From positions 1-38,055 of the forward strand of contig JANWYF010000123.1 of the NCBI GenBank assembly GCA_025057055.1: 38,055 nt of DNA, in the 5' to 3' direction. The translations under genes and the position numbers were made by a program. Shown piece after piece: positions 1 to 16,068 of this stretch. The number at the start of each line of letters is the position of its first letter. The stretch's first letter is position 1. Below the pieces are notes generated by a model. That model was given only the letters and a program-made list of their open reading frames with translations. It was not told where the DNA came from and did not search any database. The stretch comes from Rhodovarius sp. (GTDB taxonomy: Bacteria > Pseudomonadota > Alphaproteobacteria > Acetobacterales > Acetobacteraceae).

Positions 1-497
1 CAGTCCAGCGCGAGGTTGCCGGGCACCTCGCCAGGCCAGAGCTCCGGCGCGCCGGATCGCAGCGCCTCCGCTGCGCTGGTCACGGCCGGCAGGGGGGCGT
101 AATCCGCCACCACCGCCTCTGCCGCATCCAGGGCCTGGGCTAGGCTTTCCGCCACCACCAGCGCCACCGGCTCGCCGACATGGCGCACCCTGCCCTGCGC
201 CAGGACAGGCCGGTGGATGCGCAGGATGGGCCTGCCATCCGCGCCCTTCATCGGCACCGGCGCGGTGACCGGGCCGAGCTCAGCACAGCCCAGGTCGGCG
301 GCGGTGAAGACCCCCAGCACGCCCGGCATGCCCCGCGCAGCCGCCGCGTCGATCCGCAGCAGCTCCGCATGGGCATGGGGCGAGCGCACAAAGACCGCCG
401 CTGCTGCCTCGGCCGGCCGGACATCATCGCCGAAGCGGCCAAGGCCTTGCAGCAGCGCTGCATCCTCGACCCGCCCGGGCCAGCGCTCATCCCTCAT
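1..497 (-). CDS. Xanthine dehydrogenase/CO dehydrogenase-type molybdenum hydroxylase large subunit, N-terminal part
   Basis: This is the first 165 codons of a gene that leaves the window at base 1. The translated start (MRDERWPGRVEDAALLQGLG) and the following stretch with RSPHAHA, GVFTAADL, a repeated VGEPVALVVAES block and PLPAV are typical of the N-terminal domain of CoxL/XdhB-like molybdopterin subunits, where the substrate-channel side of the enzyme begins. The family hydroxylates N-heterocycles, aldehydes or CO; the substrate-defining residues lie further on and are not visible. The start is supported by a GGAGGAGGG ribosome-binding site just upstream. It lies 262 bp downstream of a TTT receptor on the same strand, so it may be the last part of the catabolic locus or may have its own promoter. 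The small and FAD subunits are not in the window. Confidence 0.75.
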   Translation of the reverse strand, partial: MRDERWPGRVEDAALLQGLGRFGDDVRPAEAAAAVFVRSPHAHAELLRIDAAAARGMPGVLGVFTAADLGCAELGPVTAPVPMKGADGRPILRIHRPVLAQGRVRHVGEPVALVVAESLAQALDAAEAVVADYAPLPAVTSAAEALRSGAPELWPGEVPGNLALD

Positions 498-759
498 GGC
501 CCAACCCTCCTCCCGGGCGATGGCGATCGGCCGGATCGCCCGGCCGCCCGCCCCTGGCCGACCGCCCGCTCGCCCTGCGCCCCCCTCTGCCGGCCGACCG
601 CAGGCGGCGCCGCCGCGGCGCTCTTGTGGTTCCTCGGCGAGCGCAGCGGCAGCCGGACAGCCGCGCGGCCAGGCTTGCAGGCAGCCCGCGCCGCGGCAGT
701 CCGCATCATCGCGTCTCGCCCTGTCACGGCGGCCTCCTCCCTGCTGCGGTGCTGGCGGG
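498..759. other. Intergenic gap, very GC-rich, no gene recognised
   Basis: The 262 bp between the molybdenum-hydroxylase gene and the first TTT receptor are dominated by GC-rich low-complexity sequence. I see no conserved protein, no clear promoter and no T-tailed hairpin. The only functional element I can support is the ribosome-binding site next to 497. Confidence 0.5.
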
Positions 760-1731
760 TCAGTCGACGGTGATTCCTGCCTCGCGGATCACGGCCGCCC
801 AGAACAGGAGATCGGCCGCCAGACGGTCGCGCAGACGTTCCGGCGGGCCGCCGATGGCCGTCATGCCTTGCGCGGTGAGGGCCTGCGCCACCTCGGCGGT
901 CGTGAGCACCTCGTTCACCGACTCGTTGAGCCGCCGCAGGATCTCGGGCGGCGTGCCGGCGGGGGCGAAGAGGCCGTACCAATCGCGCATCACAACCCCC
1001 GGCACCCCGGCCTCGGCCACCGTGGGCACATCGGGCGCTTGGGGCAGGCGCGCCTCGGTCGCAACGGCCAGGATGCGCACCCGCCCATCGCGCGCGAGCT
1101 CCACCGCCGTCGTGATCGGGATGAACATGACGCCGATATTCCCGGCCAGGAGATCGGCCACCGCCCCCGCGACCGCGCGATAGGGCACATGCTCGACCTG
1201 GATCGCGGTGCGCTGCTTGAACATCTCCATCGCCAAATGGTGCGGTGTGCCCACACCGGGGGAGCCGTAGTTGAGCCGCCCCGGATGGCGACGGGCATTC
1301 TCCAGGAACTCCTGCAAGCTCGCTCCGGCCGAGGGATGGGCGATGATGGCGAAGGGCACCTGGGCGAGCAGCGCGATCGGCGCGAAACTGGTCACGGGAT
1401 CGTAGGGCAGGTTGCGGAACAGGCTGACATTCATCGCCATGGTGCCTGCGGTGACAACCAGCGTATGCCCATCCGGCGCCGCCCGCGCCACCATGGCGGT
1501 ACCGATATTGCCGCTGGCGCCCGGGCGATTGTCCGCCACGAAGGGCTGGCCCCATCGCCGCTGCAGCTCCTCCGCCACCAAGCGCGCGACGATATCGGGC
1601 GGCGAGCCGGCGGAATAGGGCACCACCACCGTCACCGGGCGCCGGGAGAGCCCCTGCGCGCGTGCCGGACCGGCAAGGGCCACGGCCACCACGCTGGCGC
1701 CGAAGCGGCGCCGTGAGAGATTGCCCATCAT
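760..1731 (-). CDS. TTT-family (Bug/TctC-type) extracytoplasmic solute-binding receptor 1
   Basis: A 323-residue periplasmic receptor of the tripartite tricarboxylate transporter family, the usual length for the family. It starts MMGNLSRRRFGAS and continues with a hydrophobic stretch ending ALAGPARAQ, which reads as a twin-arginine-type signal peptide. Family hallmarks follow: RPVTVVVPYSAGSPPD, DNRPGASGNIGT, APDGHTL, SLFRNLPYDPVTSFAP, and HVPYR. These proteins capture small organic acids. The start at 1731 places it 1 nt after the stop of the upstream amidohydrolase, so the two are translationally linked; a second ATG at 1728 is equally possible. It resembles receptor 3 (6156-7133) at about half of positions by eye, including the shared C-terminus with REAGIT, so the two are paralogues. 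No TctA/TctB membrane subunits are nearby. Confidence 0.9.
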   Translation of the reverse strand: MMGNLSRRRFGASVVAVALAGPARAQGLSRRPVTVVVPYSAGSPPDIVARLVAEELQRRWGQPFVADNRPGASGNIGTAMVARAAPDGHTLVVTAGTMAMNVSLFRNLPYDPVTSFAPIALLAQVPFAIIAHPSAGASLQEFLENARRHPGRLNYGSPGVGTPHHLAMEMFKQRTAIQVEHVPYRAVAGAVADLLAGNIGVMFIPITTAVELARDGRVRILAVATEARLPQAPDVPTVAEAGVPGVVMRDWYGLFAPAGTPPEILRRLNESVNEVLTTAEVAQALTAQGMTAIGGPPERLRDRLAADLLFWAAVIREAGITVD

Positions 1732-1732
1732 G

Positions 1733-2701
1733 TCATGCCTCCACCCTTTCAAGGCCGAGCAGTTCGGCCGCATTGCCGTGACAGATCCTGGCCCGGACCT
1801 CCTCGCCAACCGGCGCGGTGTCGATGAAGCGCGCCGCCACGTCCGCGGACTCGAAGGGATAATCCACCGAAAACATCACCCGCTCCGCCCCAAGCGCCGA
1901 GAGGGCGCAGAGCAGCGGTTCGGCCGCGCACTGGCCGGAGGTGGTGACCAGGATATTGCGCCGGATATAGGCCGAAGGCGGAAGCGCTAGCGGCCGTTCC
2001 GCCTTGTAGAGCTGCGCGCGACTATCCAACCGCCAGAGCAGGTAGGGCAGCGTCTCTCCCATATGCCCAAGGATCAGCCGGGCCGCGGGGAAACGGTCGA
2101 AGATGCCGGCGAAGACGATGCGCAGCGCATGGGTCGCGGTCTCGACCGTCCAGCCCCAGATGGCGCGGCTCAGGATCTTGTGTCCGGCCCAGCCCGCGTA
2201 GGGCGCTTCCGGATCGGCCGGATGCAGATAGATCGGCACGCGGAGCGCCTCGGCGCATTCCCAGATCGGAAAGCAGCGCGGATCATCCAGATACAGCCCC
2301 CGCGTCTGCCCGTTGATCAGCGCCCCCTTGAAGCCGAGCTCACGCACGCAGCGCTCGAGCTCCCGCGCCGCGGCCGGCGGATCCTGGACGGGCAGATGGG
2401 CAAAGCCCGCATAGCGCGTCGGGTGGCGGCGGATCGCTTCGGCCAGCGCGTCGTTGACCTCCTGCGCGCGGCGCACCGCGATGGCGGCATCGGGTTCGAC
2501 CTGCACGCCGGGACCGGCCAGGGAGAGGACGGAGATCGCGATCCCCGCCGCATCCATCGCGCCAAGCCGCCGCTCACCGAAGTCGCTCAGCCTCTCGAGC
2601 ACCGTGCGGTAGAGCTGTTCCGGCAGATCTTCGACGGTCGCCTCCCAGTAGGGGATCATGGAGGGGACCATGAAATGCTCCTCGAGCGCGATCTTGCGCA
2701 T
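1733..2701 (-). CDS. Amidohydrolase-2 family protein, gamma-resorcylate/aromatic acid decarboxylase-like
   Basis: A 322-residue TIM-barrel amidohydrolase of the ACMSD/gamma-resorcylate decarboxylase group, which removes CO2 from (hydroxy)aromatic or muconate-type acids using one divalent metal. It begins MRKIALEEHF, matching the E-x-H metal motif of resorcylate decarboxylases (E7, H9). Other likely metal or catalytic residues are H160 in YLHPAD, H213 in LGHMGE and D280 in FSVDYPFE. The start was chosen because it is preceded by GGGAGGAAC and fits the family N-terminus; an upstream extension to 2929 reads as noncoding. The gene ends 1 nt before the TTT receptor start. A 243-bp gap separates it from the creatinase-like gene upstream, so it may have its own promoter. 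The exact substrate is unknown; a hydrolase of a related acid is possible. Confidence 0.88.
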   Translation of the reverse strand: MRKIALEEHFMVPSMIPYWEATVEDLPEQLYRTVLERLSDFGERRLGAMDAAGIAISVLSLAGPGVQVEPDAAIAVRRAQEVNDALAEAIRRHPTRYAGFAHLPVQDPPAAARELERCVRELGFKGALINGQTRGLYLDDPRCFPIWECAEALRVPIYLHPADPEAPYAGWAGHKILSRAIWGWTVETATHALRIVFAGIFDRFPAARLILGHMGETLPYLLWRLDSRAQLYKAERPLALPPSAYIRRNILVTTSGQCAAEPLLCALSALGAERVMFSVDYPFESADVAARFIDTAPVGEEVRARICHGNAAELLGLERVEA

Positions 2702-2944
2702 GTTCCTCCCTTCCGGCACGGCCCGCGAACAGGCGCGATCCGGCGCTTTCGTGGTGTCTGGTGATGCGACCTCCCGGGTCGCGGCAATGGTCGCAACGCC
2801 GCCATCCTCGGCCTGCGGGTGCTGCTGGCGCCCTGTCCGTCCCACGGCTGCTGTGGATGCGGCCTGAGTGCGCCCGGCCGGCCCCTCTCTCGGGTGAACG
2901 GCATCTCCTGCAGCCAGCCAGCGGCCCATGCCCGTCCGCCCCCG
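2702..2944. other. 243-bp gap inside the catabolic locus
   Basis: No coding potential that I would defend lies between the creatinase-like gene and the resorcylate-decarboxylase-like gene. The gap is far longer than all other junctions from 16068 down to this point, so an internal promoter for the decarboxylase-receptor pair is plausible, but I could not identify convincing -35 and -10 boxes. Confidence 0.45.
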
Positions 2945-4147
2945 CTAGCAGACCTCGAAGATGCGCTTCTCGGTCGCGTGCAGGCAGGCGCTCACGCCGT
3001 CCGCCTCGACCATGTAGTTGTCGCAGATGACGGCGAAGAGCGATTCCGTCTCGTAGCCGGGATGGACGGCCAGGCACATGCCCGCCTCGAGGGTCCAGCT
3101 CTCATCCGCACGGATCAGGGGACGTTCGACCATGTCATAGCCCTGGCCATGCGCGTAGAGCCGCATTTCCTCCGGCAGGCCATGCGCGCGCATCCACTCA
3201 TCATGCGCCGCGGCGATCTCGCGGCAGGAGGCGCCCGGGCGGATGAGGGAGAGCGTGTGCTCCTGCGCTGCCTTGACGGCGGCGAAGCCGTCCAGCAGCT
3301 CCTGCGAGGCGCGGCCCAGCACGATGGTCCGCGCGATCTCGGTATAGAAACCGCCGGGGCCATTCACCTCGATCAGCAGCGAGAAATGATCGCCTTTCTG
3401 GATCCTGCGCCCCTGCATGTGCCGCCCCAGGAAGGAGGACCGCTGCCCCAGCGGGGCGGAGGAGCCGAGAAAGATTCCCTGCTCGCTGCCCAGCACCTGC
3501 GCCGCATGCTGCGCCAGGGCGGTGATCTCCACATCGCGCATGCCCGGGCGGATCCCTTCCAGCACGCGTGCGAAGACCGCATCCTGCAGTTGCGCACAGC
3601 GGCGGATCAGTGCGATCTCCTCCTCGCTCTTGATCGCCTTGAGCCGATCCACCGCCTCCGTGGCGTCCGAGAAGCCGGCATGGCCCGACAGGCGGCGGCG
3701 CAGCCCGTCGACGAAACCCGACGGCATGGCCCCCGGCGCCACCAGACCGATGGAGCGGCAGCCATGCGCCGCGAGCGCTCCGGCCACCAGCTCCGCCTCA
3801 TAGTCGTGCGTGTAGGCGATGGAGAGGAAGGCGGGCGTGGTGAGGATCTCTCCGACACCGCGGTGCACGGGATCGCGCCCCTCCAGGACGCGCCGACCCC
3901 GGAAGGGGCCCATGTCGACCACGCTCATCGGACGGCCATCGGCGTAGAAGACGACAGATCGCGGATAGCCGTTGTGAGCCGGGATATCAGTGAACCACTT
4001 CACATAGCCGCCGAGCCAGTCATTGCTGCTCTGCATGACCAGCGCATCGAGGCCGCGATCGGCCATCACGGCGCGCACCGCCGACCACCGTCGCGCAAGC
4101 TCCCGCTCCGAGACGCGGGTCGGGATGCGTTCGGTGCCATTGTCCAT
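2945..4147 (-). CDS. M24/creatinase-fold hydrolase (Xaa-Pro peptidase-like) with substituted metal ligands
   Basis: A 400-residue protein with the creatinase N-terminal domain followed by the pita-bread catalytic domain shared by creatinase, prolidase and aminopeptidase P. The five canonical metal positions D, D, H, E, E are here E260 (LLIEVNG), E270 (YTEIART), H333 (YAHGQGYD), H362 (AVHPGY) and D376 (ICDNYMV); only the histidine is unchanged. That argues against a standard dimetal peptidase and for a creatinase-like, possibly metal-independent C-N hydrolase or a different metal site. I placed the start at the ATG at 4147 because GAGGAA stands seven bases before it; a GTG at 4162 in the same frame would overlap the previous gene. 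The D-2-hydroxyacid dehydrogenase ends 11 nt upstream. The substrate is unknown. Confidence 0.85.
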   Translation of the reverse strand: MDNGTERIPTRVSERELARRWSAVRAVMADRGLDALVMQSSNDWLGGYVKWFTDIPAHNGYPRSVVFYADGRPMSVVDMGPFRGRRVLEGRDPVHRGVGEILTTPAFLSIAYTHDYEAELVAGALAAHGCRSIGLVAPGAMPSGFVDGLRRRLSGHAGFSDATEAVDRLKAIKSEEEIALIRRCAQLQDAVFARVLEGIRPGMRDVEITALAQHAAQVLGSEQGIFLGSSAPLGQRSSFLGRHMQGRRIQKGDHFSLLIEVNGPGGFYTEIARTIVLGRASQELLDGFAAVKAAQEHTLSLIRPGASCREIAAAHDEWMRAHGLPEEMRLYAHGQGYDMVERPLIRADESWTLEAGMCLAVHPGYETESLFAVICDNYMVEADGVSACLHATEKRIFEVC

Positions 4148-4158
4148 GGCCAGATTCC

Positions 4159-5103
4159 TCACCTTGGCACGAGGTTGCGCAGGCCTGCCACATCGCCCGA
4201 GAGGTAGGCGCGGAGGTTCTGCTCGAGCAGCGGCAGGATCTGGCGGGCGTAGACGTCGCTCATCCCGCCGACATGCGGGGTGACGACGACATGGGGCATG
4301 TCCCAGAGCGGGCTGTCAGGCGGCAGCGGCTCGGTCTCGAACACGTCGAGGCCCGCGCCTGCGATGCGGCCCTCCTGCAGGGCTTCGATCAGCGCCTGCT
4401 CGTCGACCACCGGCCCGCGCGCGAGGTTGATCAGGATGGCCTCCGGCCGCATGGCCGCAAGCACGCTCCGGTCGATCATGTGGCGCGTCGCCGGAGTGAG
4501 CGGCACGAGGACAATCAGCACATCGGCCTCGGCCGCCGCTTCGGCAAGGCGCGCCCGCGGCAGGACCAGATCGAAGCCCGGCGCCTCGCTGCGCGCGTCA
4601 CTCACCCCGATGACCCGCATGCCGAAGGCTCGGCAACGCAGCGCAAGTTCCTCGCTGATCGCGCCGATGCCGATGAGCACCGCGGTCTTGCCCAGAAGGA
4701 GCCTCTGCGGCCAGCGCTCCCAGCGATGCGCACGCTGATTGGCCAGCATGCGCGGGAAGTCGCGCAGCAGCGACATCATATGCAGGAAGGCCATCTCGGA
4801 CATCTGCGGCCCGTGAATGCCGCGGGCATTGGTGACAAGCACCTCTGGCCGTAGGTTCGGCAGGGCGAGGAGATGGTCCACGCCGGTCGTCAGCGCCTGG
4901 ATCCAGCGCAGCCGCGGCATGGCGGCAAGCAGCCCGGCCGGAACCTCATGCGCAAGCGCGAAGAGCACCTCCGCCTCCCGCCCGATCGCGGCTGCCGCCT
5001 CCGCGTCCGTCGCCGCGCGGAACCCGGCCTGCGGGAAACGCGGGGCGAGGTGTGAGACGTAGATCTCCGCCTCCTTCTCGAGGATCAGGACCTCGGTCGC
5101 CAT
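4159..5103 (-). CDS. D-2-hydroxyacid dehydrogenase, NAD-dependent
   Basis: A 314-residue member of the D-isomer-specific 2-hydroxyacid dehydrogenase family, which interconverts 2-keto acids and D-2-hydroxy acids with NAD(P)H in the cytoplasm. The catalytic triad is visible: R229 in LARGPVVDE, E258 in FETEPL and H277 in TPHVGG. The nucleotide-binding loop is GIGAIS (145-150), so the third glycine of GxGxxG is replaced by serine, which is seen in GhrA-type members. It ends 11 nt before the creatinase-like gene and starts 15 nt after TTT receptor 2, consistent with an operon. No clear Shine-Dalgarno precedes the ATG, so translation may depend on coupling. A second, only distantly similar family member lies at 16549-17526. 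Confidence 0.9.
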   Translation of the reverse strand: MATEVLILEKEAEIYVSHLAPRFPQAGFRAATDAEAAAAIGREAEVLFALAHEVPAGLLAAMPRLRWIQALTTGVDHLLALPNLRPEVLVTNARGIHGPQMSEMAFLHMMSLLRDFPRMLANQRAHRWERWPQRLLLGKTAVLIGIGAISEELALRCRAFGMRVIGVSDARSEAPGFDLVLPRARLAEAAAEADVLIVLVPLTPATRHMIDRSVLAAMRPEAILINLARGPVVDEQALIEALQEGRIAGAGLDVFETEPLPPDSPLWDMPHVVVTPHVGGMSDVYARQILPLLEQNLRAYLSGDVAGLRNLVPR

Positions 5104-5118
5104 GGGGCGGCGGCGCCG

Positions 5119-6117
5119 TCAGTCGCGCCGCGGGCGGGCCGCGCGCGCGATCTCGACCCCGCGGCGGCGTTCGGCCTCGACGATCGATGCGAACTCGGCC
5201 GGTGTGCTGCCGACGCCCTCATAGGCCTGCGGATCCAGGAAGCGACTTCGATACTCTGCATCCTGAACCGAGGCCCTGGTCGCAGCGGCGATGCGCTCCA
5301 TGATGGAAAGAGGGGTATTCGCCGGGGCAGCGAAACCCCACCACGGGCCGTCATAGGGGAAATCATAGCCGAGTTCCCCAAGCGAGGGGGTGTTGGGCAG
5401 ATGCGGCGACCGCTGCGCGCCGAGCACCGCGAGCGGCTTCACCCGCCCGGCCTGGATGTGCTGCAGAGCGAAGCCCAGGGCGATGTAGGAGACCTGCACA
5501 CGCCCGGCGGCGAGCTCGTTGAAGGCCTCCCCGATGCCGCGGTAGGGGACATGCTCGATCTGCAGGCCCTCGCGCTGCTTCAGCCATTCGTAGAGCAGAT
5601 TCGCCACCGACCCCTCCCCGGAAGAGCCGTAGTTGAGATCCCTCCGTCCCCTGGCCCAGCGCACGAAACCCGCGAGATCATCGACCGGCAGCGAGGGATG
5701 CGCGAGCAGCACACCGGCATTGCGCGCAATCAGCGTCACCGGCTGCAGCGAGGCCCAGCGTGCGTAGAGCTGGGGCTCCACGTGGGGATAGATCGACATC
5801 ACCTCGACCGAAACGGCGCAGAGAGTGTAGCCGTCCGGCGGCGCCAGCGCGCAGGCCTCCAGCCCCACGGCGTTGTTTCCGCCCGGACGGTTGTCGACGA
5901 TGATCGGCTGGCCGAGCTGGGCCCGCATCGGTTCGGCCAGGGAGCGGATCAGCGTATCGAGCACGCCGCCCGGCGGCTGCGGGATGATGACGCGCACCGG
6001 CCGCACCGGCCAGGCCTGAGCTGTCTGCGCCGAAGCCGCGCCGGACGGCGGCAGAAGGCTTGCTGCTATGCCCGCAGCGAGGGTGCCTCTTCTCGATATC
6101 CTGCTGCCTGATCTCAT
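5119..6117 (-). CDS. TTT-family extracytoplasmic solute-binding receptor 2
   Basis: A 332-residue periplasmic receptor with the signal region MRSGSRISRRGTLAAGIAAS, a twin-arginine-like motif followed by a hydrophobic core ending near GAASAQ. Family features include RPVRVIIPQPPGG, DNRPGGNNAVG, the PPDGYTL turn, LNYGSSGEGS and IEHVPYRG. It is the most divergent of the three receptors here: the glycine-rich and PYDP segments differ from receptors 1 and 3, so it probably binds a different acid or is a much older copy. A strong GGGAGGAAC ribosome-binding site precedes the ATG. It starts 38 nt after receptor 3 ends and ends 15 nt before the hydroxyacid dehydrogenase. No TctA/TctB partner is visible. 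Confidence 0.9.
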   Translation of the reverse strand: MRSGSRISRRGTLAAGIAASLLPPSGAASAQTAQAWPVRPVRVIIPQPPGGVLDTLIRSLAEPMRAQLGQPIIVDNRPGGNNAVGLEACALAPPDGYTLCAVSVEVMSIYPHVEPQLYARWASLQPVTLIARNAGVLLAHPSLPVDDLAGFVRWARGRRDLNYGSSGEGSVANLLYEWLKQREGLQIEHVPYRGIGEAFNELAAGRVQVSYIALGFALQHIQAGRVKPLAVLGAQRSPHLPNTPSLGELGYDFPYDGPWWGFAAPANTPLSIMERIAAATRASVQDAEYRSRFLDPQAYEGVGSTPAEFASIVEAERRRGVEIARAARPRRD

Positions 6118-6155
6118 GTCCGTTCCTCCCGTTCCGTCCTGCCTGATCGAGGCCG

Positions 6156-7133
6156 TTATTCCGGCGTGATTCCCGCCTCCCGCACCACCGCCGCCCAGCG
6201 GATCAGATCAGCGGCGATCTGTCGGCGCAGCAGCTCGGGCGGGCCGCCGCGCAGCGTGAGGCCCTGATCCGTCAGACGCTGCGCGATGGCAGGATCAGCG
6301 AGCATCTCATTGGCCGCGCCGTTGAGCTGCGCGATGATCGCATCGGCCGTACCGGCGGGCGCAAGCAGGCCCCACCAGTTGTCCACATCGACGCCCGCTA
6401 CCCCGAGCTCGGCCAGCGTGGGCAGTTGCGGTGCGATCGGCAGCCGCTGCGCAGCCGCGACGGCAAGCAGCTGCACCCGGCCGCTGCGTGCGAGCTCGAG
6501 CGCCGCACTCGCCGGCAGGAACATCGCTGCGACCTGCCCTCCGGTAACGTCCGAGACCGCCTGGGCCAGCCCGCGATAGGGCACATGCGTCAGGTCAATG
6601 CCTGCGCGGCGACGGAACAGCTCCATCGCGAGGTGATGCGGCGTGCCAATCCCTGGCGAGGCGTAGGTGACCTCTCCCGGGCGGCGGCGCGCCAGCTCAA
6701 GGAAGCCCCGCAGATCACCCGGTGCCGAGGCCGCAGCGACCAGTACGAAGCTGCTTTCGACCAGCATCACCACAGGTGCGAAGCTGGCGATCGGATCGTA
6801 GGGAAGGGACCGGAACAGGCTAACGTTCATCGCCAGCGTGTTCGCGGTCAGCAACAGGGTATGCCCGTCGGGTGCTGCGCGCGCCACCGCGGCGGTGCCG
6901 ATATTGCCGCTCGCGCCCACGCGGTTGTCCACGATGAAGGGCTGGTTCCACCGCCGCTGCATCCACTCGGCGAAGATGCGCGCAACCAGATCGGGGCCGC
7001 TGCCGGCGCTGAAGGGCACGATGATCGTCACCGGCCGCCCGGAGAGCCGCTGCGCGCTCGCCACCCGCACCACAACCGGCGCCGCCGCCGCGGCGGCCAT
7101 CCATCGTCGGCGGCTGATCGCGCGCTGGGTCAT
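6156..7133 (-). CDS. TTT-family extracytoplasmic solute-binding receptor 3
   Basis: A 325-residue periplasmic receptor. The N-terminus MTQRAISRRRWMAAAAAAP carries a twin-arginine-type motif and a hydrophobic core with likely cleavage after VASA. Core motifs are RPVTIIVPFSAGSGPD, DNRVGASGNIGTA, APDGHTL, SLFRSLPYDP and THVPYRG. It is a clear paralogue of receptor 1 (760-1731), sharing the distinctive NVSLFR-LPYDP segment, the GTPHHLAME segment and the REAGIT ending. The start codon overlaps the stop of the upstream ACMSD-like amidohydrolase by 4 nt (ATGA), with GGAGGGAGGC as ribosome-binding site. The pairing of an amidohydrolase with this receptor type repeats at 760-2701, which suggests that enzyme and receptor handle the same or related compounds. 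Confidence 0.91.
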   Translation of the reverse strand: MTQRAISRRRWMAAAAAAPVVVRVASAQRLSGRPVTIIVPFSAGSGPDLVARIFAEWMQRRWNQPFIVDNRVGASGNIGTAAVARAAPDGHTLLLTANTLAMNVSLFRSLPYDPIASFAPVVMLVESSFVLVAAASAPGDLRGFLELARRRPGEVTYASPGIGTPHHLAMELFRRRAGIDLTHVPYRGLAQAVSDVTGGQVAAMFLPASAALELARSGRVQLLAVAAAQRLPIAPQLPTLAELGVAGVDVDNWWGLLAPAGTADAIIAQLNGAANEMLADPAIAQRLTDQGLTLRGGPPELLRRQIAADLIRWAAVVREAGITPE

Positions 7134-9539: not shown

Positions 9540-10402
9540 CCGCGCACCTTCGGGAAGAGACCCTCCGGCCGGATCGCCAGCACCAGGAGGAAGAGCAGAT
9601 GTCCGGCGAGAATCTGCCAGCCAGGATCGAGCTTCGCACCAACCGACTGCGCGACACCGAGCAGCACGCCGCCGACCAGCGTGCCCCAGAGGCTGCCGAG
9701 CCCGCCGATGATCACCGCTTCGAAGCCGAAGATCAGCCGCGCCGGACCGATCGCGGGATCGAAGTTGGAACGCACCGCGAGCAGCACGCCGGCCACGGCC
9801 ACAACGGCGAGCGACAGCGCCATCGCCAGAGCGAAGACATGCCGGTTGTCGAGCCCCATCAGGCGCGCAACCGCAGGATCATCCGAGGTTGCCCGGAAGG
9901 CGCGCCCCAGCGGGGTGCGGTAGAAGAGCAGCTGCAGCCCCGCAATCACGAGCACGGCGAGAAAGAACTGCAGCAGCGGAAGCACACCGACGGCAAGGCC
10001 ACCCGGCAGGGTGAGGCTTGCCACCTCCAGCGGTCCGGCCTGCAGGCGCCGGCTGTCGGCCGAGAAGATCTCGAGCAGGGCATTCTGGATGATCACGGAC
10101 AGCCCGAAGGTGACGAGCAGCGGCGGCAGCAGATCATCGCCCAGCGTGCGGTTCAGCAGCAGCCTCTGCAGCAGGTAGCCGAGAAGCGCCATCAGCGGCA
10201 CCACCACCGCCAGCGCCGCCAGCGGATCGAGACCAAGCGTGCCAGTGACGACCAGGGCGAGATAGGCCGCCAGCACGATGAGATCCCCATGCGCCACGTT
10301 GACCAGCCGCATCACGCCGAAGATGAGCGACAGCCCGGCCGCGAACAGCGCATAGAGGCCGCCGAGAAGCACGCCCTGGAGGATGGTGTTGACCCAGTCC
10401 AT
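9536..10402 (-). CDS. livH: Branched-chain amino acid-type ABC transporter permease LivH
   Basis: A 288-residue LivH-family permease, the usual length, with multiple membrane segments. Recognisable segments are ILQGVLLGGLYALFAAGLSL at the N-terminus, IFGVMRLVNVAHGDL, the cytoplasmic coupling loop GRAFRATSDDPAVARLMGLD, and GGLGSLWGTLVGG near the end, followed by the typical RPEGLFP terminus. I start it at the ATG at 10402, preceded by GAGGTGGGC; the frame stays open upstream but that part lies within livF on the same strand. It begins 7 nt after the livF stop and overlaps livM by 4 nt, so the transporter genes are co-translated. Confidence 0.93.
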   Translation of the reverse strand: MDWVNTILQGVLLGGLYALFAAGLSLIFGVMRLVNVAHGDLIVLAAYLALVVTGTLGLDPLAALAVVVPLMALLGYLLQRLLLNRTLGDDLLPPLLVTFGLSVIIQNALLEIFSADSRRLQAGPLEVASLTLPGGLAVGVLPLLQFFLAVLVIAGLQLLFYRTPLGRAFRATSDDPAVARLMGLDNRHVFALAMALSLAVVAVAGVLLAVRSNFDPAIGPARLIFGFEAVIIGGLGSLWGTLVGGVLLGVAQSVGAKLDPGWQILAGHLLFLLVLAIRPEGLFPKVRG

Positions 10403-10409
10403 GCCCACC

Positions 10410-11126
10410 TCACACCCCGAAATAGGCGGCGGTGATCGCATCGCGGGTGAGGCTGCGCGCATTCCCCTCCAGCACGATGCGCCCCTCGCGCAGACAGTGG
10501 ACACGATCTGACGCAGCCAGGGCCTGGTTGACGTCCTGCTCGACGAGCACGATGGCAGTCCCCTCGGCGGCGATCTCGGGCAGGCGAGAGTAGATCTCTC
10601 GCACCATGATCGGCGCGAGACCCAGGCTGAGCTCGTCGCAGAGCAGCAGGCGCGGGTTCGACATCAAGGCCCGGCCGATCGCCGCCATCTGCTGCTGCCC
10701 GCCGGAGAGGGCAGTGCTCGGAACATGCCGCCGCTGCGCCAGGGCGGGGAAGACATCGTAGACGGCATCAAGGGTCCACCGACCCGAGCGGCCAAGATGC
10801 CCGCCGATCAGCAGATTCTCCTCGACCGTGAGGGAGGGGAAGAGACGCCGCCCCTCCGGCACCAGCGCGATACCCCTGCGGACGATATGGTTGGCAGGGA
10901 GGCCGCCGATCGCCTCGCCCTCCAGTCGCACGGAAGCCGGAAGGCGTGCCGGCATCATGCCAGCGATGGTCTTAAGCAAGGTGCTCTTGCCTGCACCGTT
11001 GGCGCCGATCACCGCCACCACCTCCCCCGCAGCGACGGTGAGCGAGACGCCAAAGAGCGCCTGGAAATCGCCGTAGTAGGCGTCGAGCCCCTCCACCTCC
11101 AGCAGCGGGCAGGACCGGTCAGGCAT
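10410..11126 (-). CDS. livF: Branched-chain amino acid-type ABC transporter ATPase LivF
   Basis: A 238-residue ATP-binding subunit of the HAAT importer family. All nucleotide-binding motifs are intact: Walker A GANGAGKST, the Q-loop region before LVPEGRRLFP, the signature LSGGQQQM, Walker B LLLCDELSLGL with catalytic glutamate, and the switch region VEQDV, in which LivF proteins carry glutamine where most ABC ATPases have histidine. It pairs with LivG as a heterodimer on the cytoplasmic side of LivH-LivM. The ATG overlaps the end of livG by 8 nt. LivF is the fully canonical ATPase of this pair, in contrast to LivG, whose signature is altered. Confidence 0.94.
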   Translation of the reverse strand: MPDRSCPLLEVEGLDAYYGDFQALFGVSLTVAAGEVVAVIGANGAGKSTLLKTIAGMMPARLPASVRLEGEAIGGLPANHIVRRGIALVPEGRRLFPSLTVEENLLIGGHLGRSGRWTLDAVYDVFPALAQRRHVPSTALSGGQQQMAAIGRALMSNPRLLLCDELSLGLAPIMVREIYSRLPEIAAEGTAIVLVEQDVNQALAASDRVHCLREGRIVLEGNARSLTRDAITAAYFGV

Positions 11127-11847
11127 CGACCGGGATCCCCATATAGACCTCGGCCACCGCGGGGTTGCGCACCACCTCGGCCACCGACCCTTCGGCGATC
11201 ACGCCACCGCCGTGCAGCACCACGACGCGGTCGACCACCGCGGCCAGCGCGTGCAGCACATGCTCGATCCAGACGATGGTGATGCCCGAGGAACGCAGCG
11301 CCCGGATCAGCTCGACCAACTGGCGTGCCTCGGGCTCGGTCAGCCCGCCTGCCACCTCATCGAGCAGCAGCAGGCGCGGTCGCGTAGCCAGCGCGCGGGC
11401 CAGCTCCAGGCGCTTGCGGTCGAGCAGCGTGAGCTTGCCGGCGCGCAGATTGGCCTTCTCGACCAATCCGCAACGGTCGAGGATGTCAAGACACTCGCCG
11501 TAGGCCGCACGCTCGGCGATGCCGGCCCCGAAACAGGCCGCCGTCAGCAGGTTCTCGAAGACGGTGAGGCCGCCGAAGGGCTGCGGGATCTGAAAGGAGC
11601 GCGCAATCCCCAAGCGGCATCTGCGCGCGGGCGAGAGGCGCGTGACGTCCCTTCCCGCGAAGAGGATGCGGCCGCCATCGGGCTCTACAGTGCCGGTGAT
11701 GATGCCGAAGAGCGTCGTCTTGCCGGCACCGTTCGGCCCGAGCACGCCCAGCGCCTCACCGGCTTGAACGGACAGATCGATGCCGTCCGCCACCACCACG
11801 GCGCCGAAGCGCTTGGCGATACCTTCGAGGGCCAGTATCGGCGGCAC
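11119..11847 (-). CDS. livG: Branched-chain amino acid-type ABC transporter ATPase LivG, atypical signature motif
   Basis: A 242-residue ABC ATPase with Walker A GPNGAGKTT (37-45), the LivG-characteristic GIARSFQIPQPF Q-loop segment, Walker B LLLLDEVAGGL and the switch histidine in WIEHV. The ABC signature, normally LSGGQ or LSYGQ, reads LTLLDRKRLELA (139-150), so the usual Ser-Gly-Gly/Tyr-Gly-Gln residues are absent. In a heterodimer this may leave one ATP site catalytically weak while the other, completed by LivF, remains normal. I recall similar LT-x-x-D-R-K-R variants in part of the LivG family, so this may be a subfamily trait rather than damage. It begins with GTG, 15 nt after the binding protein stop. 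Confidence 0.91.
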   Translation of the reverse strand: MPPILALEGIAKRFGAVVVADGIDLSVQAGEALGVLGPNGAGKTTLFGIITGTVEPDGGRILFAGRDVTRLSPARRCRLGIARSFQIPQPFGGLTVFENLLTAACFGAGIAERAAYGECLDILDRCGLVEKANLRAGKLTLLDRKRLELARALATRPRLLLLDEVAGGLTEPEARQLVELIRALRSSGITIVWIEHVLHALAAVVDRVVVLHGGGVIAEGSVAEVVRNPAVAEVYMGIPVDA

Positions 11848-11862
11848 AAGCGGGCGCCCGTC

Positions 11863-13131
11863 CTAGTCGAGAAGCTCGAGCTGCCCGCCGACCGGGATCT
11901 CCGGCGCCGTGGCGTTGGTGGTCACGACCAGGTCGAAGGCACCATTCGGCCGGCGCTTCCACTGCCCGGCGACCAGCAGGGTCTTCGCCACGTTCTTGAC
12001 CGGCCCCGATCCCCAGCGCACCGGACCGATGATCGAGCGGTAATCGGTGCGCCGGATGGCATCCAGGATCGCCCGCGGCTCCAGGCGCTCCGCGCGCTTC
12101 AGCACATCGATCGCGACTTCGAACAGCGCATGCTGATAGCCCACGGGCTGCGTCCAGGGGCGGCCCGTCGCCTGCGTGTAAGCGGCGGCGAGTTCGCGCG
12201 CGGTCTGCCCAGTCAGACCGGACCGGAAGGGGTGGCTCGGGGTCCACCAGATCTCGGTCGACAGGCCATGGCCGCGCTCGCCCAGTGCTGCCACCGCAGA
12301 GGGGAACAGCAGCGCCTTGCCGATGGTGACGATCTTGGGCCGGAAGCCCTGCTGGCCTGCCTGCGTCCAGAAGGTCGCGAAATCAGGCGGCGTCAGGTTG
12401 CCGGTCACGATCTGGACATTCGCTGCCTTGAAGGCGGAGATCTGGGCGGTGAAATCGTTGCTGAAAGGCTGGAAGCGCCCAGTGTCGATCAGGCGATAGC
12501 CGTTGCGCGCCAGCGCCGGCGGCAGGCCGAGCCGGGAATCACCCCAGGCATTTCCGTCGGCATCATTAGGGAACAGCCCGCCGACCACCTTGTTGGTCTC
12601 AGCACCCGACCAGAGGGCGAGGAAGGCGTCAATGACATCCTCGAGCCCCCAGAAGAAATGCCAGGTCCACTCGAAGCCGCGCTGCGGATCTCCACGGCGG
12701 CCGAAGAAATAGGGCTGCCAGGGGCAGTTCGTGGTGATGCAGGGAACCTCGTTCACCTCCGCCTGGTCGGAGACGGGATTGACCGTATCCGGCGCCGCCG
12801 CAGCGGTGATGAGGTCCACCCGATCGCGCAGGATCAGCTCGGCCGCCACCTCGGCCGCGCGGGAGGGGTTGGACTGGCTGTCACGCGAGAGGATCTGCAC
12901 CGGATGAATGCGGTTGCCGACGCGGATCCCCTGGCCGATCGCGCGCAGGATCCCTTCCTGCACGAAGGCGTCGGCCTCACCGAAGGCGGCCAGCGGTCCG
13001 GTCCTCGGGCTCACATGGCCGATCCGGATCGGGCGGTTCGCGCCCTGCCCGAGCGCGGGTGCCGCAAGGGTGCTGGCCCAACCCGCAGCCATGACGCTAC
13101 GACGGGTGATGCGCTGGTTGTTGGTGTTCAT
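11863..13131 (-). CDS. LivK-like periplasmic substrate-binding protein
   Basis: A 422-residue periplasmic binding protein of the leucine/isoleucine/valine-binding type (peripla_BP_6 fold). The N-terminus NNQRITRRSVMAAGWAS followed by TLAAPALGQG indicates a twin-arginine-type signal peptide with cleavage around residue 28. The first lobe begins with PIRIGHVSPRTGPLAAFGEA, the standard start of the fold. A strong GGGAGGAG ribosome-binding site precedes the ATG and a 6-bp-stem hairpin sits immediately upstream of it, which may allow the binding protein to be made in excess over the permeases. It is the first transporter gene of the liv set, 36 nt after the dehydrogenase. Many homologues of this type bind aromatic or other organic acids or amides rather than amino acids; the ligand here is unknown. 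Confidence 0.92.
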   Translation of the reverse strand: MNTNNQRITRRSVMAAGWASTLAAPALGQGANRPIRIGHVSPRTGPLAAFGEADAFVQEGILRAIGQGIRVGNRIHPVQILSRDSQSNPSRAAEVAAELILRDRVDLITAAAAPDTVNPVSDQAEVNEVPCITTNCPWQPYFFGRRGDPQRGFEWTWHFFWGLEDVIDAFLALWSGAETNKVVGGLFPNDADGNAWGDSRLGLPPALARNGYRLIDTGRFQPFSNDFTAQISAFKAANVQIVTGNLTPPDFATFWTQAGQQGFRPKIVTIGKALLFPSAVAALGERGHGLSTEIWWTPSHPFRSGLTGQTARELAAAYTQATGRPWTQPVGYQHALFEVAIDVLKRAERLEPRAILDAIRRTDYRSIIGPVRWGSGPVKNVAKTLLVAGQWKRRPNGAFDLVVTTNATAPEIPVGGQLELLD

Positions 13132-13145
13132 CTGTCTCCTCCCTT

Positions 13146-13162
13146 CGCCGCTCGAGGCGGCG
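13146..13162 (-). promoter_or_regulatory. Intercistronic hairpin before the binding-protein gene
   Basis: CGCCGC and GCGGCG form a perfect 6-bp stem around a 5-base loop in the 36-nt gap between the dehydrogenase stop and the binding-protein start, ending three bases before the ribosome-binding site (13136-13143). Such elements can stabilise the downstream message or block exonuclease decay. There is no U-run, so I do not call it a terminator. Confidence 0.45.
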
Positions 13163-13167
13163 TAGCT

Positions 13168-14070
13168 TCAGCGCGAACGCTTGAGATGCTCGGTCAGCCT
13201 CCTCCTCAGCTCCTCCTGCTGTTCCGGCGTCCAGCGCCGGAAGCCTTCGCCCGTCTTCATCCCGAGCCGCCCCTCGGCGACCAGCCGCTCCAGATAGGGC
13301 GAGGGGGCAGGGCGCGAATCGATCTCAGGCAGCACCGTCCGATGGATGGCCAGCGTCAGATCGGTGCCGACCAGGTCGGCATTCTCGAGCGGCCCGAGCA
13401 CCGCCAGACGCAGGCCGAAGCTTGCCTTGACCACCGTATCCACCGTCTCCGCGTCGCAAATCCCCTGCTCGACCAGCGCAATCGCCTCTCGCCACAGGGC
13501 ATGCTGCAGACGGTTGCCGACGAAGCCTGCGACGTCGCGCCTGACATGGACGGGAGTCTTCCCGAGGCTGCGGTGCAGCGCGATCGTGGCCTCCATGACC
13601 TCCGGCGAGGTCCATTCCGTGCCGGTCACCTCCACCAGCGGCACGAGATAGGGGGGGTTCCACCAATGCGTGCCGAGGGCTCGGGAGCGGTCGCGCAGCC
13701 CCGCCATAATGCGCGTGATGGGGATGACGGAGGTGTTGCTGGCCAGGATCGCCTGCGCCGGTGCCGCCGCCTCGATCTCGGCGAACAGGCGCTGCTTGAG
13801 CGGCAGGTCTTCCGGCGCCGCCTCGACGACGAAAGCCGCCTCGCGCACCGCCTCGGCCAGCACCGGCACGGGCTGCACCCGCTCCGCTGCCTTCTCGTCG
13901 ATCTCCAGATCACGGCAGATCGCGCGCACACGCTCGCGCAGCCGCTCCAGGCTGGCGGGCAGCGGATCGTAGACAGAGACGGGATGGCCCGCCGCGGCGA
14001 AGACCTGCGCGATGCCATGGCCCATCAGGCCCGCGCCGATCACTGCGACGGGTGCCCCGGCCGCGATCAT
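13168..14070 (-). CDS. 3-hydroxyacyl-CoA dehydrogenase-family NAD-dependent dehydrogenase
   Basis: A 300-residue two-domain dehydrogenase. The N-terminal Rossmann domain has VIGAGLMGHGIA (10-21) with an acidic residue after the second strand (VYDP), indicating NAD. Catalytic positions of the family are present: S111 in ASNTS, H135 in THWWNPP, E147 in LVEV and the asparagine in FVGNRLQ. The NPPYLVPLVEV stretch is closer to lambda-crystallin/L-gulonate 3-dehydrogenase and L-carnitine dehydrogenase relatives than to the HFFNPV motif of fatty-acid beta-oxidation enzymes, so the substrate may be a free 3-hydroxy acid instead of a CoA thioester. It overlaps the SDR gene by 4 nt (ATGA) and lies 36 nt before the binding protein gene. 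Confidence 0.88.
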   Translation of the reverse strand: MIAAGAPVAVIGAGLMGHGIAQVFAAAGHPVSVYDPLPASLERLRERVRAICRDLEIDEKAAERVQPVPVLAEAVREAAFVVEAAPEDLPLKQRLFAEIEAAAPAQAILASNTSVIPITRIMAGLRDRSRALGTHWWNPPYLVPLVEVTGTEWTSPEVMEATIALHRSLGKTPVHVRRDVAGFVGNRLQHALWREAIALVEQGICDAETVDTVVKASFGLRLAVLGPLENADLVGTDLTLAIHRTVLPEIDSRPAPSPYLERLVAEGRLGMKTGEGFRRWTPEQQEELRRRLTEHLKRSR

Positions 14071-14879
14071 CCCGCCGTATACCCCCCATCCGCATAGAGG
14101 ATATGCCCCGTGTAGAAATCCGAGGCACGAGAGACCAGGAACAAGAGCGGCCCGGCGAGGTCCGAGGGCTCACCCAGGCGCCCCTTCGGCACGCGCTGCA
14201 AAAACCCCTCCCGCACGCTGCGCGCGCGCTCCGTATCCTCGAACATCCAGGCGGTGAGCGGGGAACGGAAGACCGTCGGCGCGATGGCATTGACCGTGAT
14301 CCCGGTCGGGCCCCATTCGCAGCCGAGCGCGCGAGTGATGCCGTCCACCGCCGCCTTGGAGGCGCAATAGGCCGTATATCCCGCAGGATGGCCGAGGCGC
14401 CCACGCGCCGAGGACATCAGCACCACCTTGCCGCCCTCGCCCTGCGCGAGCATGCGCCGGCCCGCCGCCCGCGCCATCAGCCAGGACTGCGTGACATTGG
14501 CATCCATCACGTCGAGGAAGCGTTCGGGCGACATCTCCGTGATCTTGGCGACGTCGTTCTTGCCGGAAGCGACGACCAGGATATCGATGCGTCCGAAGCG
14601 CCCCGTCGCGGCCTCGCAGATCGCCTCGCAATCCGCCTCGGAGGCGGGGCGGCGCGGCACCGCCTCGACCTCCGCGCCAAGGCCGCGACACTCGGCAGCC
14701 ACCTCCTCCAGCGCCTTGGCATTGCCCGCCGCCAGCACGAGGCGGCAGCCGGCCGCCGCCAGCACCTTTGCCGCCAGCGCACCGAAGGCCCCGGAGGCGC
14801 CGGTCACGATCGCGACCTTGCCAGTGACATCGAAGAGCTGCCGCGGGTCGCGCAGCCAGTCGGGGCTTGCGCCGCTCAT
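14067..14879 (-). CDS. Short-chain dehydrogenase/reductase (SDR), classical type
   Basis: A 270-residue cytoplasmic oxidoreductase with the classical SDR layout. The cofactor loop is TGASGAFG (26-33), the catalytic serine is in LMSSARG (156-157) and the YxxxK pair is Y171/K175 in YCASK. The structural NNAG motif is replaced by VASG (103-106), and the C-terminus ends with the common GHILYADGGYTAG. This kind of protein oxidises alcohols or reduces ketones with NAD(P). It overlaps both neighbours by 4 nt (cupin upstream, 3-hydroxyacyl-CoA dehydrogenase-family gene downstream), indicating tight coupling and a shared pathway. The substrate cannot be read from sequence. Confidence 0.92.
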   Translation of the reverse strand: MSGASPDWLRDPRQLFDVTGKVAIVTGASGAFGALAAKVLAAAGCRLVLAAGNAKALEEVAAECRGLGAEVEAVPRRPASEADCEAICEAATGRFGRIDILVVASGKNDVAKITEMSPERFLDVMDANVTQSWLMARAAGRRMLAQGEGGKVVLMSSARGRLGHPAGYTAYCASKAAVDGITRALGCEWGPTGITVNAIAPTVFRSPLTAWMFEDTERARSVREGFLQRVPKGRLGEPSDLAGPLLFLVSRASDFYTGHILYADGGYTAG

Positions 14880-15226
14880 GACACAGCCGCGGGCGGATAG
14901 GGCATCACGACCAGCATGGTCGCGACCTCGTTGCTGTTATTGCGCACCTCTCGCACCACATCGGGGCCGATGCAGCAGGAGTCGAGCGGCCCGAGCACCA
15001 CTTCCTTCCCTTCGGCGCGCACGGTGATGTGCCCGGCCAGCACGACATACACCTTCTCGAGCGGGGATCCGTCCGGACCGGCACCGCCGCCGGGCAGGAA
15101 ATGGGACAGCCCGACCCAGAATCCCCGCGGACCGCCCTCCTCGAAGCCCTGCAGGCGCAGCGAGCGCATGTCGAAATGGTTGGGCGCCTGATAGGGCTTC
15201 GCCTCAGCGAAGCGCTTGACCAGCAT
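14876..15226 (-). CDS. Small single-domain cupin protein
   Basis: A 116-residue single cupin barrel. The cupin core runs roughly from FWVGLSHFLPGGGAGPDGSP through EKVYVVLAGHITVRAEGKEVVLGPLDSCCIGPDVVREVRNNSNEVATMLVV. The metal-binding histidines of motif 1 (HxH) are not present in the expected place (GGGAGPDG), and motif 2 lacks the usual histidine, so metal-dependent catalysis is doubtful; a glutamate is kept in PLEKVYVVL. It may be an isomerase, a binding protein or a helper of the adjacent cyclase. Its ATG overlaps the cyclase stop by one base (TGATG) and its stop overlaps the SDR start by 4 nt. Confidence 0.8.
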   Translation of the reverse strand: MLVKRFAEAKPYQAPNHFDMRSLRLQGFEEGGPRGFWVGLSHFLPGGGAGPDGSPLEKVYVVLAGHITVRAEGKEVVLGPLDSCCIGPDVVREVRNNSNEVATMLVVMPYPPAAVS

Positions 15227-16068
15227 CAGAAGGCCTCACCGCGTTCGATGCGGTATGAGCCGGAGGGGTCGACGATCGCCACGAGGCGGACGATGCAGCC
15301 GTCACCGCGCTCCCATTTCCAGGGGAAGAAGGCGAAGGTGACGCGCCGGCCCGTGACGGCATCGAGCTCCCCACCCACATTCTCAATGCCGAGGATCCCG
15401 GCCTTGAACAGCATGCGGTGCACCGGTTCCCATTCCGGGAAATCCTGCTCCCAGCTGCGCCCACCCGACCACTCCAGATACTCCTTGGCGAGGTGCGGCA
15501 GCAGCGGGCCGTTGCGGTGCGGCCCGATCGCGGTGGCCAGCGGATGGTCATTGGCCTGGGTGTCGTGCCCCACCACCTTCACCTTCCGTTCGATCAGCCA
15601 GCGCGCGGCCGAGGGGACAAGACCGGGGGAGTAGGCGAAATACTCCTCATTGTCCTCGTATTTGTGGTGCCAGCCCGTGTTGATGATCACCACGTCACCC
15701 GGGCGCACCACCTTGCCGCCCGCGCGTTCGAGATCGTCATAGGTAATCTGCTCCCACTTCTGCTTCGGGATCGACAGCACGACGCCCGAACCGAAGAAGT
15801 GGGGCAGCGGCACCTCGTCAATGAAGGGCGTGCCCGCCACCACATGCGCCGGCGCATCGATGTGGGTGCCGTTATGCATGGTGGTCGTGATGCGCTGCGA
15901 CAAGACGCCGGATTTGGCCATGTAGTGGATGCGCTCGATCTGCACATCCTGGAAATAGGGCCAGTTCGGGGTCTGGAAGCCGAAGCGATGCGACAGATCG
16001 TAAAACTCCAGACCCATCGCATTGTCGCGATTGGCCTCGAAAGCGATCCCGCGAACGGTCACCGGCAT
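15226..16068 (-). CDS. Cyclase-family (kynurenine formamidase-like) metal-dependent hydrolase
   Basis: A 280-residue member of the cyclase family (PF04199), which includes bacterial kynurenine formamidase KynB and other metal-dependent amide or lactone hydrolases. The diagnostic HxGTHxDxPxH motif is complete: H64, H68, D70 and H74 in MHNGTHIDAPAHV. Further support comes from the typical start LEFYDLSHRFG and the central GDVVIINTGWH segment. It is longer than KynB (about 210 residues), as in the family branch that often accompanies aromatic-acid catabolic genes. The start at 16068 has a GGGAGGAAC ribosome-binding site; the open frame upstream to 16446 has no family similarity. It is the first gene of the minus-strand locus, so its upstream region is where the main promoter should lie. 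Confidence 0.88.
   Translation of the reverse strand: MPVTVRGIAFEANRDNAMGLEFYDLSHRFGFQTPNWPYFQDVQIERIHYMAKSGVLSQRITTTMHNGTHIDAPAHVVAGTPFIDEVPLPHFFGSGVVLSIPKQKWEQITYDDLERAGGKVVRPGDVVIINTGWHHKYEDNEEYFAYSPGLVPSAARWLIERKVKVVGHDTQANDHPLATAIGPHRNGPLLPHLAKEYLEWSGGRSWEQDFPEWEPVHRMLFKAGILGIENVGGELDAVTGRRVTFAFFPWKWERGDGCIVRLVAIVDPSGSYRIERGEAF

Follow-up and report, generated by a model that had tools for sequence, protein, structure and literature searches.

A pathway for phloroglucinol breakdown has been described in Clostridium scatologenes, where it comprises a phloroglucinol reductase (PGR) of the short-chain dehydrogenase/reductase (SDR) family, a dihydrophloroglucinol cyclohydrolase (DPGC) of the cyclase family, a triacetate-forming dehydrogenase (TfD) of the 3HCDH type and a lyase, TAL, of the BKACE type (Zhou et al. 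mBio 2023, PMC10470551). According to the same paper, the cluster also occurs in Mesorhizobium loti, a Bradyrhizobium sp., marine alpha- and gammaproteobacteria and Mycobacterium. The DNA analysed here, called the window throughout, is a stretch of 38,055 nucleotides from a Rhodovarius sp. that makes up the whole of contig JANWYF010000123.1 in a draft genome of 3.07 Mb in 251 contigs (GCA_025057055.1; G000:C171 in our numbering). A run of 17 minus-strand genes, from 16068 down to 3, most likely serves the uptake and breakdown of phloroglucinol, the ring that remains from many plant polyphenols. We put a probability of roughly 80% on the joint explanation that 16068-8184 is a phloroglucinol catabolic operon and that 7133-760 is probably a module feeding it. 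The first-pass annotation knew of no named pathway with this set of genes, but the core of the run fits the pathway that Zhou et al. described (PMC10470551). The window resembles the C. scatologenes system in having the families for three of its four steps and, in cyclase and dehydrogenase, the diagnostic residues as well, a likeness that rests on the residues named in PMC10470551 and not on C. scatologenes sequences. It differs in carrying a Liv-type importer in place of the 'major family transporter' of that system, in having as a fixed member of the core a cupin, which goes unmentioned in the main text of PMC10470551, in lacking a linked BKACE and the TR(S/N) motif of the reductase, and in carrying additional genes for a D-2-hydroxyacid dehydrogenase (DHDH), an M24 protein, two amidohydrolases (AH1 and AH2) and receptors of the tripartite tricarboxylate transporter (TTT) type.

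From 16068 downwards the genes encode the cyclase, the cupin, the SDR, the 3HCDH-type dehydrogenase, LivK, LivG, LivF, LivH and LivM, followed by AH1, the TTT receptors TctC1 and TctC2, DHDH, the M24 protein, AH2, TctC3 and the N-terminus of a molybdenum hydroxylase. The Pfam families in the importer half are Cyclase, Cupin_2, adh_short_C2, 3HCDH, Peripla_BP_6, two ABC_tran and two BPD_transp_2, and those in the other half are two Amidohydro_2, three TctC, 2-Hacid_dh_C, Peptidase_M24 and Ald_Xan_dh_C. By the open reading frame coordinates, 14 of the 16 junctions range from an 8-nt overlap to a 38-nt gap, the two wide ones being that from M24 to AH2 (243 nt) and that from TctC3 to the molybdenum hydroxylase (262 nt); the starts of LivH, AH1, AH2 and TctC3 were shifted to later Met codons, by homology or by eye. 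The genes named in the first-pass annotation were all found on the minus strand, in families that agree with Pfam and with the tight spacing that it described; its count of about 14 genes fell short, the same-strand run being real. Its broader view of a transporter-equipped catabolic locus that includes amidohydrolases of the decarboxylase type also holds, and so do the types that it gave to the latter, as among solved structures AH1 is nearest to ACMSD (193 bits) and AH2 to gamma-resorcylate decarboxylase (254 bits).

The cyclase-family hydrolase (15226-16068, minus strand, 280 aa, PF04199) is predicted to be a DPGC. Its residues H65, H69, D71 and H175, which we take to be the metal-binding residues, are present in 84 of 84 matches. 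The paper names Trp20 and Tyr22 of DPGC as residues that take the place of an Ile and a Leu in isatin hydrolase (PMC10470551). The equivalent residues in the window, W36 and Y38 (W20/Y22 of CsDPGC), are likewise present in all 84 matches, and the replacement of the isatin hydrolase Ile/Leu by Trp/Tyr with the metal ligands kept was therefore found in 84/84. Even the cyclase of Acetoanaerobium noterae, which is 35% identical, has Trp and Tyr at exactly the positions of W20 and Y22. The solved kynurenine formamidase and isatin hydrolase relatives are distant from the window cyclase, with 22-41 bits to 11 matched sequences. The gene next to it encodes a mono-cupin of 116 aa (14876-15226, minus strand, PF07883) without HxH, the usual metal motif of cupins; in 86 matches, window and duplicates included, D52, E57 and K58 are conserved. 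A match of this cupin to the NCBIfam model NF050094, 'beta-D-galactosidase', was dropped, its 91.8 bits falling short of the cut-off of 175.

The SDR (14067-14879, minus strand, 270 aa) is predicted to be a phloroglucinol reductase. Its best match in the PDB is 5g4k with 177 bits, the next protein having 147. We take 5g4k to be the Clostridium phloroglucinol reductase, the PDB listing saying only that it is an SDR; Conradt et al. are said to have described this enzyme in 2016. A loop, PTVFRSxLTxWM[FY], is common to 5g4k (PTVFRSDLTEWMF) and to 76 of the 76 SDR orthologues in which it could be read, the four others among the 80 matches at 50% identity or more not covering it. In a tree of 29 SDR rows 5g4k grouped with the SDRs of the clusters with support of 95/92, and HpsO and the SDR of A. 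noterae fell outside; the tree has long branches, that of 5g4k among them, and the letter make-up of 5g4k is unlike that of the other rows. Match, loop and tree all point to an SDR of the phloroglucinol reductase type, given the identity that we assume for 5g4k. The predicted model of the SDR was poor (pLDDT 60.5), and a fold search with it gave 50 SDR entries with Z scores of 17.2-18.3 that did not include 5g4k.

The third enzyme (13168-14070, minus strand, PF02737 and PF00725) is predicted to be the 3-hydroxy-5-oxohexanoate, or triacetate-forming, dehydrogenase. In the residues that the paper names, TfD keeps the catalytic Ser, His and Asn and has lost the CoA-binding Lys56 and Asn221 of 3-hydroxybutyryl-CoA dehydrogenase (PMC10470551). 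The window enzyme keeps S114, H135 and N186. It reads GLRLAVLGP in the place of the GMN-HPMGP of 9fbd, on which we located the positions of Lys56 and Asn221 by eye, so that the Asn of the 9fbd stretch GMN-HPMGPL is replaced. Across 75 sequences the Ser was present in 73, the His in 72 and the Asn in 72, the remainder being not covered or gapped. The closest solved relative, 4om8 (181 bits), is the 5-formyl-3-hydroxy-2-methylpyridine 4-carboxylate 5-dehydrogenase of vitamin B6 catabolism, but the window dehydrogenase scores 233 bits for that function against a cut-off of 500 and no other gene of the B6 pathway was recognised in the cluster. Vitamin B6 catabolism was rejected on these two grounds.

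The four genes just described are kept together elsewhere. Besides the own genome, the cyclase was found (E limit 1e-40) in two of 149 genomes of the order (G113 and G133) and in three of 384 genomes of the class (G171, G218 and G521), at 76-85% identity. A scan of genome contigs with an alignment of six cyclases gave 387 relatives, and the best 80 of these, with close relatives among them, came from Roseomonas, Beijerinckiaceae, Xanthobacteraceae, Rhizobiales and others, mostly as metagenome-assembled genomes. One of them, L026, is filed under Planctomycetota and has a cyclase of 83% identity together with a cupin and an SDR; this may be a binning error. Counted on the strand of the cyclase and at 45% identity or more, 79 of the 80 loci have the cupin, 77 have the SDR and 71 have the dehydrogenase, while the Liv genes are present in 29-36; some of the absences are due to contig ends. 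Cyclase, cupin, SDR and 3HCDH-type dehydrogenase are thus a block conserved beyond chance. Judged by sequence, this four-gene core is most likely the phloroglucinol pathway cluster, which is known in kind and has been reported before from some of these groups. The gene order that the first-pass annotation proposed to look for in other genomes is accordingly kept for the core, the second half of the run being absent from many loci, and it is for the core only that homologous clusters with a characterised substrate came to light, which that annotation had named as grounds against its own view.

Genes around the core were grouped over the 80 loci, seven stretches of four genomes and the window, with a cyclase called in 83. 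These neighbour counts are lower bounds, a shadow frame having been picked over 11212-14097 of the window; one contig, G113:C11, entered twice (as L016 and as L031), and the counts for AH2, DHDH and M24 include the window. The neighbours of the cyclase were an IclR-type regulator in 53, AH2 in 52, BKACE in 24, DHDH in 24 and M24 in 16, and 47 of the AH2 neighbours were on the opposite strand at a median of about 1.2 kb upstream; one member each of the regulator, BKACE and hydrolase groups was checked with Pfam. That hydrolase, of the type that acts on 2,4-diacetylphloroglucinol (DAPG) or phloretin, was found in five entries that represent four distinct contigs (L031, L041, L045 and L084), with PF18089 confirmed for L045, and is an independent pointer to phloroglucinol. 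BKACE at 55% identity or more was present in 32 of 87 stretches, many of which end early and among which one plasmid was counted twice (L108 and L139). On plasmid pDY25-C of Pacificitalea manganoxidans the set consists of IclR, cyclase, cupin, SDR, 3HCDH, five Liv genes and BKACE, and on pUSP2 of Aminobacter sp. MSH1 it is the same without a listed binding protein. Plasmid pLA3 of Novosphingobium pentaromativorans carries cyclase, cupin, SDR, 3HCDH and BKACE, with an MFS transporter that replaces Liv. In Mycobacterium riyadhense there are genes for SDR, cyclase, cupin, BKACE and IclR, and a match to the dehydrogenase lies between SDR and cyclase. The putative pathway is plasmid-borne in some of these bacteria, and one of the plasmids has been typed as conjugative. 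A substrate class can be proposed for widespread alphaproteobacterial clusters; on such plasmids the genes are now labelled 'cyclase family protein', 'SDR family oxidoreductase' and 'branched-chain amino acid ABC transporter'. In the clostridial A. noterae (L105) the cupin, SDR, dehydrogenase, cyclase, BKACE and a sub-threshold PF18089 gene stand in a row. As a bridge to the clostridial clusters this locus is only partly good, its SDR being of another type and its PF18089 gene scoring 22.1 against a cut-off of 22.7. It also has a second, short cupin-like stretch (6616-6747) directly upstream of the full cupin (6806-7168). The record in question, NZ_CP154629.1, is labelled plasmid pTPELB2, with 2.6 Mb and four annotated features, and is chromosome-like in size.

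Gene order, families, diagnostic residues and co-occurrence were established here by computation, whereas the reactions are those described for C. scatologenes; by analogy, the window proteins would carry out the same ones. The Liv-type importer would take in phloroglucinol or a relative, and the SDR would reduce phloroglucinol to dihydrophloroglucinol. The cyclase-family enzyme would then open the ring hydrolytically, in a retro-Claisen reaction, to 3-hydroxy-5-oxohexanoate, which as the free acid would be oxidised by the 3HCDH-type enzyme to triacetate, and a BKACE lyase would cleave the triacetate. Should the SDR use NADH, a single cofactor pool could balance this reduction against the oxidation further on. 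The cupin is a constant companion of the core without an assigned role. The companions, that is the cupin, M24 with DHDH, and AH2, are conserved to differing degrees, and the core is known whereas its extension is uncharacterised. By titles and the openings of abstracts, in a collection with thin coverage of subscription journals, no paper came to light that connects a phloroglucinol cluster with a cupin, with an M24 protein or with a trihydroxybenzoate decarboxylase. The cupin, the M24 protein with its DHDH and the candidate phloroglucinol-carboxylate decarboxylase are the companions that deserve attention.

In the second half of the run, the genes from 7133 to 760 (TTT receptors, DHDH, M24 and AH2) would convert carboxylated or acylated phloroglucinol to phloroglucinol. 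DHDH (4159-5103, minus strand, PF02826) and the M24 protein (2945-4162, minus strand, PF00557) are predicted feeder genes. M24 was searched with E limits of 1e-90 in the order and 1e-80 in the class, DHDH with 1e-60 and AH2 with 1e-70, and up to four M24 candidates were scored per genome in the class search. The order search gave strong M24 orthologues in G113 and G133, and the class search gave one in G218, a partial gene at a contig end. Such orthologues were found, in all, in three of five cyclase-positive genomes as against none of 524 cyclase-negative ones (hypergeometric p = 4e-7, relatedness ignored), figures that pool the 149 order genomes with 380 further class genomes, G000-G004 being taken as common to both draws. 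Likewise, among the 149 order genomes DHDH turned up, besides the own genome, in G113 and G133 only. In G133 and G218 the M24 gene is on another contig than the cyclase, as is DHDH in G133. Only three of 72,556 plasmids have an M24 relative at 1e-30, and two of these are the Pacificitalea and Aminobacter plasmids that carry the core; the third (Rhizobium sp. NZLR1, 43%) is outside the seven plasmids with a cyclase at 60% or more. In Pacificitalea the BKACE gene is followed by LysR, three TRAP transporter genes, DHDH, M24 and an amidohydrolase that is a 56% relative of AH2, so that the order DHDH, M24, AH2 is the same there as in the window. This triad is near the core in L046, L061, L062 and Pacificitalea, and the DHDH-M24 pair occurs in 11 of the 87 stretches.

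The M24 protein is predicted to have the pita-bread fold of its family, as seen from PF00557 and from a fold search with its predicted model (pLDDT 86), which gave Z scores of 36-37 to prolidase, creatinase and the ectoine hydrolase DoeA at 2.6-3.1 A over 361-366 residues; despite this likeness of fold, the identity to creatinase, DoeA and prolidases is 18-23%. It was below the cut-off in each of the nine NCBIfam models that it matched. We take the five metal ligands of M24 metallopeptidases to be Asp, Asp, His, Glu and Glu, with positions placed by motifs as we remember them, and four of the five are replaced in the window protein (E265, E275, H367 and C380), H338 being kept. E265, E275, H338, H367 and C380 are present in 24 of 24 matches, or in 23 of 24 with one not covered, the 24 including the window and duplicates and representing about 20 distinct M24 loci. 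Since four metal-ligand positions are replaced, it looks as if the M24 protein is not a metallopeptidase. AH2 (1733-2701, minus strand, PF04909) aligned over its full length, residues 3-321, with gamma-resorcylate decarboxylase (3s4t and 2dvt), the 254 bits being to 3s4t; that family decarboxylates 2,6-dihydroxylated benzoates. For AH2, 2,4,6-trihydroxybenzoate is guessed as the substrate from its context, and as the last feeder enzyme it would perhaps strip CO2 from this compound. AH2 at 69% was present on the core contig in three of the four records searched, all of them Roseomonas. DHDH, M24 and AH2 may form a feeder module. That they form an undescribed pathway which delivers phloroglucinol to the core by M24 cleavage, DHDH interconversion and AH2 decarboxylation is put forward tentatively, as a rather doubtful proposal; in it the M24 protein would cleave a non-peptide polyphenol fragment, such as an acylated or 2-oxo-acyl phloroglucinol, DHDH would interconvert the released 2-oxo or 2-hydroxy acid, and AH2 would decarboxylate a phloroglucinol carboxylate. 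Roseomonas and many of the rhizobial relatives are aerobic. If the hosts are mostly so, the reductive route would run in air, perhaps on NADH, and this idea, which goes together with the proposed feeder pathway, is held just as tentatively.

Several observations weigh against reading the run as a complete phloroglucinol operon with its feeder. No BKACE was recognised in the window, of which 17549-38055 was only skimmed, so no TAL co-located with the core was seen. The only BKACE found in the genome (G000:C37:7316-8206) is unlinked to the core. Its identity is 71-73% to the second BKACE of three Roseomonas genomes, which is unlinked too, and 62-64% to the linked one. Because it is nearer to the unlinked Roseomonas paralogue it is not the orthologue of the core-linked BKACE, and as a candidate for the missing lyase orthologue it was set aside. 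It follows that the last step would be carried out via a paralogue, by a gene missing from the assembly or by some other enzyme. Upstream of the window cyclase there is a second D-2-hydroxyacid dehydrogenase and no IclR gene, although IclR is beside the core in 53 loci. That dehydrogenase (16549-17526) is on the plus strand and points away from the cyclase, the two gene starts being about 480 bases apart. As regards the reductase, the paper links a TR(S/N) motif of phloroglucinol reductases to NADPH (PMC10470551). This motif, which we equated with TGRN of 5g4k by our own placement, is absent from the window SDR, which has AAGN there, and among the 80 SDR matches at 50% or more the position of the 5g4k Arg is never Arg, two of the 80 having Arg one place later. 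The missing motif bears on the cofactor and not on the ring reaction. Moreover, the SDR in the A. noterae cluster is nearest to gluconate 5-dehydrogenase and yet stands beside DPGC-, TfD- and TAL-like genes. It being of another type, the core can evidently carry another reductase and perhaps act on another substrate. Finally, AH2 at its limit was found in six cyclase-negative genomes of the order and in neither G113 nor G133.

The two points on the reductase are also what would speak for a core that acts on a related meta-hydroxylated ring, a phloroglucinol or resorcinol with alkyl, acyl or other substituents, by the same logic of reducing, opening, oxidising and cleaving: the SDR is without the NADPH motif of the characterised reductases, and A. 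noterae pairs the same types of cyclase, dehydrogenase and lyase with a different SDR. We consider this improbable, as every readable orthologue shares with 5g4k the loop that follows the SDR active site, and as a DAPG/phloretin-hydrolase-type gene is beside the core in four neighbourhoods. Far less probable still is the carboxylated N-heterocyclic or kynurenine-like substrate that the first-pass annotation had favoured; in such a pathway the molybdenum hydroxylase would attack first. The cyclase does match the arylformamidase model TIGR03035, but weakly, at 49.7 bits against a cut-off of 223, and AH1 is ACMSD-like; the best solved kynurenine formamidase, however, reaches only 30.7 bits with the cyclase, which has the Trp/Tyr pair of DPGC, and the molybdenum hydroxylase is without partner subunits alongside and was matched near the core in two of the 80 loci. 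We reject that substrate class because of the cyclase residues and the lone subunit of the molybdenum hydroxylase.

It could also be that two unrelated operons stand end to end: one, from 16068 to 8184, would hold the core and the importer, and the other, from 8176 to 3, would be a separate locus for organic acids. Many loci lack the second set in their stretches, AH1 is rare, with relatives in three loci, and AH2 occurs without the core in six of 150 genomes, all of which would suit such an arrangement. We regard it as unlikely in view of the restriction of strong M24 orthologues to cyclase-positive genomes, of the two core plasmids among the three M24 plasmids, and of the DHDH-M24-AH2 triad near the core in the four places named above. 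A phloroglucinol operon with a probable feeder module downstream is thus the reading that we prefer.

Within the preferred operon the importer would be encoded by LivK, a periplasmic binding protein (11863-13131, PF13458, with matches of at least 45% in 36 of the 80 loci), the ABC ATPases LivG (11119-11847, PF00005 and PF12399) and LivF (10410-11126, PF00005), and the permeases LivH (9536-10402, PF02653) and LivM (8184-9539, 451 aa, PF02653 over residues 45-308), all on the minus strand and all of the Liv type. The start of LivH was placed at the later Met at 10402, where the plasmid relatives begin aligning. LivM has a C-terminal tail of about 110 residues past the part that it has in common with the plasmid relatives, possibly by a shifted stop. 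Below it come AH1 (7130-8176, PF04909), whose nearest solved structure is ACMSD and whose three relatives were counted at 50% or more, and the TTT receptors TctC1 (6156-7133), TctC2 (5119-6117), which has relatives of 72-73% in two Roseomonas clusters, and TctC3 (760-1731), all three PF03401 and, like AH1, on the minus strand.

At the edge of the contig is the N-terminal part of the large subunit of a molybdenum hydroxylase (3-497, minus strand, PF01315), the remainder of which is on contig C124. Window bases 1-823 overlap C124 at 97% over 823 bases, and from this overlap the two contigs are inferred to be adjacent; that the identity is 97% instead of 100% may be due to strain variation or to an assembly repeat. 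C124 completes the large subunit to 774 aa with MoCoBD_1 and MoCoBD_2. The extension past base 1 that had been proposed for finding the remaining subunits gave none: the next gene recognised on that strand of C124 is zapA, and no medium or small subunit was seen there. The two loci in which the N-terminus was matched have it at 39%, and the molybdenum hydroxylase is probably outside the pathway. Elsewhere in the window, 21910-26589 on the minus strand encodes an NAD-glutamate dehydrogenase of 1559 aa (PF05088), an ordinary gene that has no part in the locus described here.

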